A DNA stretch of 49,142 bases from Sulfurovum sp. (lineage in GTDB: Bacteria > Campylobacterota > Campylobacteria > Campylobacterales > Sulfurovaceae): NCBI GenBank assembly GCA_020721345.1, contig DYMX01000002.1, positions 1 through 49,142 of the forward strand, written 5' to 3'. The position numbers and the translations under genes were made by a program. Under the pieces are notes generated by a model. The model did no database searches. It worked only from the letters and a program-made list of their open reading frames with translations, and was not told where the DNA came from. Of this stretch, positions 256 to 3,492 are shown in pieces. Position 1 is the first letter of the stretch. Every line of letters begins with the position of its first letter.

Positions 256-567
256 ATGGAAATATTTTTACAAACGATAGGTTCGCTCAATGATGAAACG
301 AGAGTTCGCATACTTGGATTTATAGACCAAAATAAAGAAGTTTGCGTATGCGATATAGAAACTTCATTTGACATGATACAGTCACGCATATCAAGACACT
401 TAAAAATTCTAAAAGATGGTGGTTTTTTAAAGGTTGAGAGAAAAGGTGTATGGGCGTATTATAGTGTCAGAAATCCGCTCGATGAATTTCGTCAAAGTAT
501 CCTAAAAGAGATAAGCTTTTTAAATATTGATATTCCAAAATTAAATAAAGGATGCAAAAATGGATAG
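256..567 (+). CDS. arsR: ArsR-family metalloregulatory repressor
   Basis: A 103-residue winged-helix repressor of the ArsR/SmtB family. The motif EVCVCDIE (about residues 28-35) matches the ELCVCDL metal site at the start of the recognition region of arsenite-sensing ArsR proteins, with two Cys as As(III) ligands. QSRISRHLKIL is the DNA-recognition helix. A strong Shine-Dalgarno (AAAAAGGAG) sits 5 bases before the ATG. The stop overlaps the aquaporin start, so the two are translationally coupled. The dyad at 198-213 suggests autoregulation. The arsenic assignment is supported by arsC two genes downstream. Confidence 0.9.
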   Translation: MEIFLQTIGSLNDETRVRILGFIDQNKEVCVCDIETSFDMIQSRISRHLKILKDGGFLKVERKGVWAYYSVRNPLDEFRQSILKEISFLNIDIPKLNKGCKNG

Positions 568-1246
568 AAGATATATTAGTGAATTTATCGCCACATTCAT
601 AATGATTTTTGCCGGTTGCGGGGCTATAATTGTTGATGCCATTACCGGAAGCTTGGGGCATGTTGGCATAGCTCTTACTTGGGGGTTTGTGGTCGTTGCG
701 CTCATATATACTTTTGGGCATATAAGCGGGGCTCATATGAATCCGGCTGTTACCATCGCATTTACTTTAACGAAAGAGTTTGATAAAAAAGAGTTAGTGC
801 CATATATATCTGCTCAACTTTTAGGCGCTATTTTGGCTTCTTTAGTTTTATATTTCCTATTTAATGAAGAAGCAAATAGCTTAAGAGAGCTTGCATATCT
901 TGGCGCTACACAACCAAAAGGCTCACAACTTCAATCGTTTATTTTAGAACTTATATTGACATTTATATTAATGATAGTAATATACGGAAGCGCTGTTCAT
1001 GGAAAAGCTGCCAAATCATTTGCCGGACTTGCTATTGGTCTTACTGTTGGGCTTGAGGCGATGTTTGCAGGACCTATCACAAATGCGAGTATGAATCCGG
1101 CGAGATCAATTGCTCCTGCTGTTATCAGTGGAAACCTAAATGATTTGTGGCTATATATAGTTGCTCCAATATTTGGGGCGATAGTAGCTGGGCTTGTTTT
1201 TACAAACTTTATAAAATGCAAAAATCCGGATGAATGTTCTATCTAA
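560..1246 (+). CDS. aqpS: MIP-family aquaporin, AqpS-type arsenite channel
   Basis: A 228-residue channel of the major intrinsic protein family with six predicted membrane helices and both canonical NPA boxes: MNPAVT (about residues 60-65) and MNPARS (about 178-183). It starts inside arsR (8-base overlap) and is followed closely by arsC. In Sinorhizobium meliloti an arsR-aqpS-arsC operon lets the arsenite made by ArsC leave through the aquaporin down its gradient, and the same order here suggests the same job. Water or glycerol transport cannot be excluded from sequence alone. The channel is family-certain; the substrate is inferred from context. Confidence 0.85.
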   Translation: MDRRYISEFIATFIMIFAGCGAIIVDAITGSLGHVGIALTWGFVVVALIYTFGHISGAHMNPAVTIAFTLTKEFDKKELVPYISAQLLGAILASLVLYFLFNEEANSLRELAYLGATQPKGSQLQSFILELILTFILMIVIYGSAVHGKAAKSFAGLAIGLTVGLEAMFAGPITNASMNPARSIAPAVISGNLNDLWLYIVAPIFGAIVAGLVFTNFIKCKNPDECSI

Positions 1247-1260
1247 AAAAGGAGAAATAG

Positions 1261-1806
1261 ATGATGAAACAAAGTAAAATTCCGTTAACGGACAAAAAAG
1301 TATTAGTTTTATGTACAGGAAACAGTTGCAGAAGTATCATAGCAGAGGCTCTAATAAACGCCAAACTTGACGGTATTGAAGCTAAAAGCAGTGGAGTAAG
1401 AGCAAGTGGAAAAGTAAATCCTAACGCAAAGAGATTATTAGAAGAAAAAGGGATTTGGAAGGATGAATATCACTCAAAAGTGCTTGATGAAGTAATAAAC
1501 GATGATTTTGATTTAATAGTTACCGTTTGCGACCATGCAAATGAAAGTTGTCCTATGTTTCCACGACCAATCCCCAAAATCCATGTAGGTTTTGAAGATC
1601 CTGATGGAAAAGGTTATGAGGCATTTGAAGCAACTTATAGAGAGATAGAAGAGGAGTTATTACCAAAAGTAGTTGAGTTTTTTGAGATAAAAAAAGAAGT
1701 CTCAAAGTCAAACGAAGGCGTTGATATAAAATTTAGCGGTTTTGTAACCAAAGAGAAGATCGAAACCATGGTAAACAACTCAAAAGCGGACAATGTGAAT
1801 GCATGA
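1261..1806 (+). CDS. arsC: Thioredoxin-coupled arsenate reductase with a C-terminal extension
   Basis: Low-molecular-weight phosphatase fold enzyme that reduces arsenate to arsenite. The P-loop CTGNSCR (C18-R24) is the CX5R nucleophile loop. Two further cysteines, C90 and C97, are spaced by seven as in the disulfide relay of the Bacillus/Staphylococcus ArsC, and D112-P113 provides the general acid. The protein is 181 residues against about 130-140 for the family. The extra tail (about 148-181) carries a VDIKFSGFVTKEKIE segment that resembles the next small ORF. SD AAAAAGGAG; the ATG at 1264 is an alternative start. Its stop overlaps the next ORF as ATGA. Confidence 0.92.
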   Translation: MMKQSKIPLTDKKVLVLCTGNSCRSIIAEALINAKLDGIEAKSSGVRASGKVNPNAKRLLEEKGIWKDEYHSKVLDEVINDDFDLIVTVCDHANESCPMFPRPIPKIHVGFEDPDGKGYEAFEATYREIEEELLPKVVEFFEIKKEVSKSNEGVDIKFSGFVTKEKIETMVNNSKADNVNA

Positions 1807-1943
1807 GCGATACCACAAAAATGAAAATTTCAAATATGGAAGTTGCCGGCAAAAACGGTGATGTCAAGCTTGCGCTTAGCGGCGATATAAGCGAAGAGGA
1901 GATAAAAGAGGCGCTTGGCAAATCAAAGGTAATTGATAATTGA
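1803..1943 (+). CDS. 46-aa small protein translationally coupled to arsC
   Basis: A short ORF whose ATG overlaps the arsC stop (ATGA at 1803-1806). It is Lys/Glu-rich and has no cysteine. Residues 21-42 ([20 protein letters not shown], then SK) align without gaps to residues 154-175 of ArsC: 7 identities in 22 positions and mostly conservative changes elsewhere, predicted as strand-turn-helix. This suggests a duplicated module, once fused to ArsC and once free. The pattern also recalls the last strand and helix of small Thioredoxin_3-type proteins, but without their CxxC. No function can be assigned. Coupling and the similarity argue that it is a real gene. Confidence 0.55.
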
Positions 1944-2001: not shown

Positions 2002-3492
2002 ATGACACAAAAACTAAAACAAGAGTGGTTTAGCAACACTAGGGGCGATATTCTCTCTGGACTTGTCGTAGCACTTGCACTTATCCCTGAAGCTATTGCT
2101 TTTAGTATCATAGCAGGAGTTGACCCCAAAGTTGGGCTATACGCCTCATTTTGTATCGCCTTGGTTATCTCATTTGTCGGTGGAAGAGTTGGAATGATAA
2201 GTGCCGCTACAGGCGCGATGGCTTTAGTAATGGTAATGCTTGTGAAGGAGCATGGATTGGAATATCTTTTGGCAACAACGATATTGACAGGTATTATCCA
2301 AATAGCGCTAGCTTATGTTGGAGTGGATAAACTTATGAGTTTTGTTGCGCGTGCTGTAATGGTAGGATTTGTGAATGCACTAGCAATTCTCATATTTGTA
2401 GCTCAACTTCCAGAGCTTACCAATGTCACTTGGCATGTTTATGCACTTACGGCTTTAGGGCTTGGAGTGATCTATCTATTTCCCTATATCCCAAAACTAG
2501 GCTCGTTTCTCCCCTCTCCGCTTGTGAGTATTGTTGCTGTGACACTTGTGGCTATTTTTTGGGGTGTGGATGTGCGAACAGTTGGCGATATGGGAGCTTT
2601 GCCGGATAGCTTGCCTATATTTTTACTCCCTGATGTGCCTCTAAATTTTGAGACTTTGTCTATCATATTTCCTTATGCATTTGCGCTGGCTTGCGTAGGA
2701 CTACTTGAGTCCCTAATGACTGCAACGATAATTGATGATATGACTGATACAAAAAGCGATAAAATGATGGAGGCTAGAGGACAGGGGATTGCAAATATTG
2801 CCAGTGGATTCGTGGGCGGTATGGCAGGGTGCGCAATGATAGGACAATCGGTCATTAATGTAAAATCAGGCGGCAGAGGCAGGCTGTCTGCTTTGACCGC
2901 CGGACTGGGTCTTTTAATACTTGTAGTTTTTATGAGCAATATTATCTCCATAATTCCGATGGCATCACTTGTTGCGGTTATGATAATGGTATCTGTTGCA
3001 ACATTTGATTGGAGTTCTATCAAAAAGGTAAAAACACTTCCGCTTTCAACGAGCATGGTCACATTTACCACGATGATGGTCACGATTTTGACGCACAATC
3101 TAGCGCTTGGGGTACTCTCAGGCGTACTTTTAGCATCGCTCTTTTTTGCAAACAAAATTAGCCATTTTATGTATCATGAAGAGCATTATGAAGATGGTGG
3201 CAAAACCAAATTTTATAAAATTGTGGGGCAGGTATTTTTTAATAGTTCTAATAAATTTGTAGATATTTTTGATTTTAAAGAGGATGTTCAAAAAGTCATT
3301 ATTGATGTTTGCAGAGCGCATTTTTGGGATATATCAGCAGTTTATGCGCTTGATAAAACTGTCTATAAATTGCGAAAAGAAGGTAAAGAGGTAGAGATAA
3401 GGGGACAAAATGAAGCAACTGCTACGATTATCGATAGATTTGGAGTCCATGATAATCTGGAAGAGATAGAAAAAATTATGGGCGGGCATTAA
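2002..3492 (+). CDS. SulP (SLC26-like) anion transporter with STAS domain
   Basis: A 496-residue secondary anion transporter. The N-terminal signature [20 protein letters not shown] and [12 protein letters not shown] are characteristic of SulP carriers. About 10-14 hydrophobic helices run to residue 400, followed by a cytoplasmic STAS domain (about 410-496). Substrates in the family include sulfate, bicarbonate and other oxyanions, and the sequence does not decide between them. It follows the ars genes by 58 bases and has its own promoter with an ArsR-like dyad, so an arsenic link is possible. It converges with the K+ channel gene 21 bases downstream. Confidence 0.85.

Follow-up and report, generated by a model that had tools for sequence, protein, structure and literature searches.

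In the window, the stretch of 49,142 nucleotides of Sulfurovum sp. DNA analyzed here, the arsenate reductase gene arsC is followed by a 46-aa open reading frame (ORF) that overlaps it in an ATGA and whose product resembles the C-terminal tail of ArsC. This raises the question of what the tail and the small ORF are, and what they do beside an arsenate reductase. A reading made from the sequence alone had taken them as a duplicated module, present both fused to ArsC and free. The window is the start of a contig in a metagenome-assembled genome (MAG) of 1.24 Mb with 98.9% completeness.

The first gene of the operon, arsR (256..567, + strand), encodes an ArsR/SmtB-type repressor, which scored 43 bits against Pfam HTH_5 (cut-off 22) and was also above the cut-off for NCBIfam HTH_metalloreg. 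An aquaporin/MIP channel gene (560..1246; Pfam MIP, 1.7e-59), arsC (1261..1806) and the small ORF (1803..1943) follow on the same strand, the latter two exactly where the sequence-only reading had placed them. The order arsR-aquaporin-arsC was also found in the nearest relative (L031/L190). The aquaporin is likely the exit route for arsenite, and the pairing of an aquaporin with ArsC for this purpose is documented for AqpS of Sinorhizobium (PMC6205960). In this genome, we looked for a second ArsC, ArsB, ArsP, an SBF-type permease and a second copy of the domain described below, and found none. This leaves the aquaporin as the sole candidate seen for arsenite exit. A SulP-family anion permease gene (2002..3492, + strand; Pfam Sulfate_transp and STAS) starts 58 bases past the small ORF, outside the domain; it is possibly on the same transcript as the upstream genes, and the nearest relative (L190) lacks it at this position.

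ArsC of the window has 181 residues and scored 68.5 bits against Pfam LMWPc (cut-off 23.2). Its scores were below the curated NCBIfam cut-offs (NF010053, 91.3 versus 215 bits; TIGR02691, 84 versus 174.3); despite this, its fold and catalytic residues place it in the LMW-PTPase superfamily. The active-site loop C18TGNSCR24 (C-x5-R) is kept, as are the redox cysteines C90 and C97, which correspond to C82 and C89 of pI258 ArsC, and equivalent cysteines are present in each of 14 fused relatives. Among named relatives, those closest to this ArsC were from MAGs of Sulfurovum and Sulfurimonas (Campylobacterota). Matches to ArsC in Pfam and PDB (1jl3, 1ljl and others) end at about residue 130-143, which bears out the earlier estimate that the protein is about 40 residues longer than its family.

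We compared this tail with the product of the small ORF. Residues 154-175 of ArsC (VDIKFSGFVTKEKIETMVNNSK) and residues 21-42 of the small ORF are identical at exactly 7 of 22 positions, as had been noted before. The best ungapped match covers 30 residues with 10 identities and has a BLOSUM62 score of 46. This score was reached in only 5 of 5000 shuffles (1/1000 with the whole ArsC as the search space), indicating that the likeness is more than chance. When a profile for each half was made from 78 relatives, hhalign aligned the pair with a probability of 96.2% and a score of 35.4, while the maximum in 200 column shuffles was 14.9. The internal duplication is real.

The relatives revealed how the two pieces belong together. 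In a Sulfurovum MAG (L031, 90% identical) and another MAG (L032, 82%), ArsC extends about 45 residues further, and the extension in L031 from MSDTTK onward corresponds to the 46-aa ORF of the window. The tail and the ORF were continuous in about 25 further distinct sequences as well. The arsC frame of the window stops early, inside the C-terminal domain, and relatives run to about 222 aa. Tail and ORF are strongly conserved in the relatives, but as one protein; since these read through continuously, the 46-aa ORF as an independent free copy of the tail was rejected. The ArsC tail and the 46-aa ORF are two halves of one domain, in which the ORF supplies the second repeat. Repeat 1 lies at 1690..1779 (ArsC residues 144-173, assigned by a module HMM and by hhalign of the halves; HMM positions 1-33 match residues 144-176), and repeat 2 at about 1833-1937. 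The window thus has both repeats, as two pieces, and this split was unique among the relatives examined.

Nucleotide alignment with L031 and L032 mapped the frame break to 1780..1802, where the window has one base fewer, lost at the first Cys codon. The arsC frame ends ahead of the CxC, and the second repeat is left as the ATGA-overlapping ORF. The overlap that had been read as translational coupling is present, and could permit re-initiation of the 46-aa ORF, but because the relatives are continuous and the window lacks one base, it is a by-product of a frameshift. Three-frame translation showed that the first conserved Cys codon is lost in the window and that the C-E-C codons (about 1794-1802) are outside the arsC frame. 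Another frame (ORF 1737-1940) reads straight into the small ORF and matched the module HMM with an E value of 1.1e-23. The C-x4-C-x-C motif is not in frame with both repeats, and neither product of the window carries the three-cysteine site.

The small ORF differs from L031 at 8, 5 and 23 sites on codon positions 1, 2 and 3, respectively, and changes are equally numerous on the window and L031 branches. By these branch counts, no relaxation of selection since the break could be detected. Given the excess at codon position 3 and the equal branch changes, the break either arose very recently or reflects a faulty assembly. That the MAG is wrong here, through sequencing or assembly, and that the real organism encodes an intact fused ArsC is a serious though tentative explanation. 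Besides the codon-position and branch patterns, it is consistent with the absence of the break from every other relative examined, with the retention outside the break of every position, except one, that does not vary among 22 relatives, and with an AAAA run that adjoins the break. This run is short, however, and no damage is apparent in the remaining genes of the window, which argues mildly against a generally error-prone assembly.

The intact domain is about 83 aa long (window positions 1690-1940) and is normally the C-terminus of this ArsC. Alignment of 22 intact copies over 83 residues gave a mean column identity of 76%. Two homologous beta-beta-alpha repeats are joined by a loop containing C-x4-C-x-C, a motif found in 76 of 77 distinct sequences. 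AlphaFold2 predicted for the isolated domain a beta-beta-alpha unit, the Cys loop with a short helix, and a second beta-beta-alpha unit (mean pLDDT 86.9), and the same elements were predicted in the full-length ArsC of L031 (pLDDT 88.0, pTM 0.79). Searches of the intact domain against Pfam, NCBIfam and PDB sequences gave nothing over threshold, ruling out a known Pfam or NCBIfam domain, and Foldseek of the isolated domain against the PDB gave no match with an E value below 0.001. The thioredoxin-like origin suggested earlier found no support: the conserved loop has no CxxC, no thioredoxin match was obtained in Pfam, NCBIfam, PDB or by Foldseek, and the predicted fold consists of two beta-beta-alpha units. 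The listed titles and abstracts on an ArsC C-terminal extension or an ArsC-BFD protein contained no description of this domain. The family of three-cysteine, two-repeat domains is unannotated in the libraries searched.

The domain occurs both fused and free, as the sequence-only reading had supposed, but the free form elsewhere is the whole two-repeat protein and not a half. Free genes of 83-90 aa, starting with MNKNVFKT, are located soon after arsC in many genomes. MNKNVFKT was also found inside several fusions, as expected if the arsC stop codon was lost. In the domain tree, fused and free labels interleave with 16 changes by parsimony, of which well-supported branches force only two or three, and one or two rows were mislabelled by the motif rule. 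Some relatives have ArsC-Fer2_BFD-domain fusions, in which the [2Fe-2S] BFD follows ArsC and precedes the module. In three genomes, ArsP, ArsC, Fer2_BFD and the domain are joined in this order in a single polypeptide of 660-700 aa (L192, 882-2870; L193, 1025-3082 in reverse-strand coordinates; L194/L082, reaching the contig end); the architecture was checked with Pfam in one and assigned to the others by close sequence likeness.

Several further forms were observed. A distant free subfamily with four cysteines (C-x4-C-x-C-x-C) lies after arsC or arsP (L017, L024, L053, L054, L064, L172-L174, L195 and L197), and occurs in some members of the window's genus in which the domain type of the window was not found. 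At L138 (1745-2410), an aquaporin gene located beside a BFD-domain fusion is spread over three overlapping frames, as if frameshifted. An orphan 46-aa frame (L170, G485:C28, reverse strand, about 51626-51763) consists of the start of repeat 1 and the end of repeat 2, VNKTQEGVQISFSG|DVSKEEIEAALAKSKVLN. It fits a deletion between the two repeats, has no arsC nearby and is probably a remnant.

We examined the distribution and the neighborhood of the domain. Matches were found in 40 of 397 genomes sampled in the phylum and in 77 of 175 in the family of the window. Outside Campylobacterota there was one copy, in an ars operon of Alicyclobacillus (Bacillota) ordered arsD-arsA-arsA ... arsR-arsB-arsC-arsC-trxB-domain; it is carried by plasmid p1 of Alicyclobacillus sp. 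SO9, the sole carrier in the plasmid search. No homologues were found on phages and viral contigs. An ars gene (arsR, arsC, arsB, arsP or aquaporin) lay within 1.5 kb in 48 of the 58 loci fetched with the domain as the query. The count for all distinct sequences was 67 of 77, which includes loci fetched with ArsC as the query and is biased towards ArsC; five of these have an exporter but no ArsC. The remaining 10 had no detected ars gene within 1.5 kb, and three of them are on short contigs. Intact domains away from ars genes include L185 (6941-7201), L186 (7447-7743) and L187 (7685-7993), whose neighbors, identified by eye only, are a TetR-RND efflux set, an upstream trpC-like gene and a nearby formate dehydrogenase-like gene, respectively.

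Since the copy in the window is broken, the function of the domain cannot be read from it directly, and we considered the intact relatives. Free arsenite is toxic and needs to be moved from ArsC to the exporter. We propose, with a probability of about 0.5, that the intact domain binds As(III) and hands it over. As(III) produced by ArsC would be bound by the three cysteines as a trithiolate, and the domain would hold it or pass it to the exit protein of the operon (ArsB, ArsP or aquaporin), so that little arsenite stays free. It would act in cis in ArsC fusions and in trans as a separate protein. A precedent is AfArsR, in which three cysteines within a short stretch bind As(III) (PMC11212059). 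The near-universal C-x4-C-x-C, taken with the association with ars genes, suggests such a role, as may the position of the domain beside exporters without ArsC in the five cases above, after ArsP in L172-L174 and within the ars operon from Bacillota. The ArsP-ArsC-BFD-domain polypeptide, which joins the making and the export of arsenite, also favors hand-over. The pairing of BFD with a metallochaperone has a parallel in the CopZ N-terminal families, and the lack of decay beyond the break also counts in favor of this reading.

Other observations speak against hand-over. The operons with an aquaporin (window, L031 and L050) use a channel, which needs no chaperone, and the Alicyclobacillus operon already has ArsD, so that a second chaperone is not obviously needed there. 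With arsD lying upstream, the domain was ruled out as an ArsD substitute in that operon; this co-occurrence, like the aquaporin operons, argues against a simple replacement of ArsD. The modules without a nearby ars gene also count against hand-over, and three cysteines would be suitable for redox chemistry or for binding Zn or an Fe-S cluster as well.

Redox chemistry gives the main rival to hand-over, a dithiol relay to the C90-C97 disulfide of ArsC. Electrons would come from thioredoxin, or from the [2Fe-2S] BFD in proteins that have it, and would travel through the CxC/Cys loop, which would render ArsC self-sufficient in part. CxC is common as a redox motif, ArsC is the fusion partner or neighbor of the domain in 61 of 77 sequences (a count partly biased, as some loci were fetched with ArsC), and several fusions have BFD in the middle, with ArsC before it and the module after it. 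However, some modules lie beside ArsB or ArsP without ArsC within 1.5 kb, and one adjoins a dedicated thioredoxin reductase gene. The N-terminal third Cys, which a two-Cys relay does not need, is equally invariant, and the domain has no thioredoxin-like fold. We regard the relay as rather unlikely.

Still less probable is a structural Zn or Fe-S module without direct contact with arsenic, acting for example in the control of ArsC oligomerization or in redox sensing. C-x4-C-x-C, and C-x4-C-x-C-x-C of the distant subfamily, could ligate Zn or Fe-S, and a few copies are away from ars genes, but the strong association with ars genes in two phyla speaks for arsenic and not for a general metal role.

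Returning to hand-over of arsenite, in this genome the step would be missing unless faulty assembly explains the break, and arsenite made by the intact ArsC core would leave through the aquaporin. A functional split, in which both pieces are made, through a -1 slip at TCA-AAA-GCG or through re-initiation coupled by the ATGA, and then reassemble, is very improbable: an AAAA stretch and the ATGA overlap are present and selection is apparent on both halves, but the canonical X XXY YYZ heptamer is absent, which rules out a programmed -1 frameshift, the first Cys codon is gone in every reading, and no other examined genome has the arrangement.

As a broken copy, the locus itself is of limited interest, and it cautions that an ATGA-coupled small ORF can stem from a frameshift; its value lies in the domain family that it reveals. 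Apart from ArsD, no arsenite carrier from ArsC to an exporter was named in the literature surveyed. The small and well-conserved unannotated domain with three cysteines, which is joined to or neighbors ArsC, ArsB and ArsP, offers a testable candidate for such a carrier, and the ArsP-ArsC-BFD-domain fusions would place the whole arsenite route within one protein. We tentatively suggest that the family, as an undescribed arsenite binder, was recruited repeatedly in Campylobacterota and reached Bacillota, serving as a free protein, an ArsC tail or part of a single-chain permease-reductase-[2Fe-2S]-domain export machine.

Among known systems, the core of the window ArsC shares the C-x5-R loop and the C90/C97 pair with the thioredoxin-coupled ArsC of pI258 and B. 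subtilis, and the model of a fused relative matched 1lk0, 1jf8 and 1jl3; those structures are without the extra C-terminal domain found here. The repeats show a weak likeness to the BON domain (best E value 0.0047, in 5 of 22 members), which is below the Pfam gathering threshold (12.5 versus 27 bits, L046). To our knowledge, BON domains have no conserved cysteines.

ArsD is a metallochaperone that carries bound arsenite to the ArsA pump (PMC6205960). Like ArsD, the domain is a small Cys protein of ars operons. ArsD binds As(III) with three cysteines; the relatives of the window copy have three invariant cysteines, which are a candidate As(III) site. It differs from ArsD in sequence and predicted fold, intact modules gave no match to the ArsD family in Pfam or NCBIfam at E values up to 5, and the two co-exist in the Alicyclobacillus operon. 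CopZ-type BFD-metallochaperones likewise have BFD beside a small Cys domain, and L068 matched CopZ_Nterm families; the partner domain here is not HMA by any match, and neither the window nor most relatives have BFD. Finally, ArsC is known in fusions with other parts of arsenic resistance, namely AqpS-ArsC, ArsR-ArsC and ArsN-ArsC (PMC6205960), whereas the partner here is an uncharacterized three-cysteine, two-repeat domain, which is also joined with BFD and ArsP in one chain.
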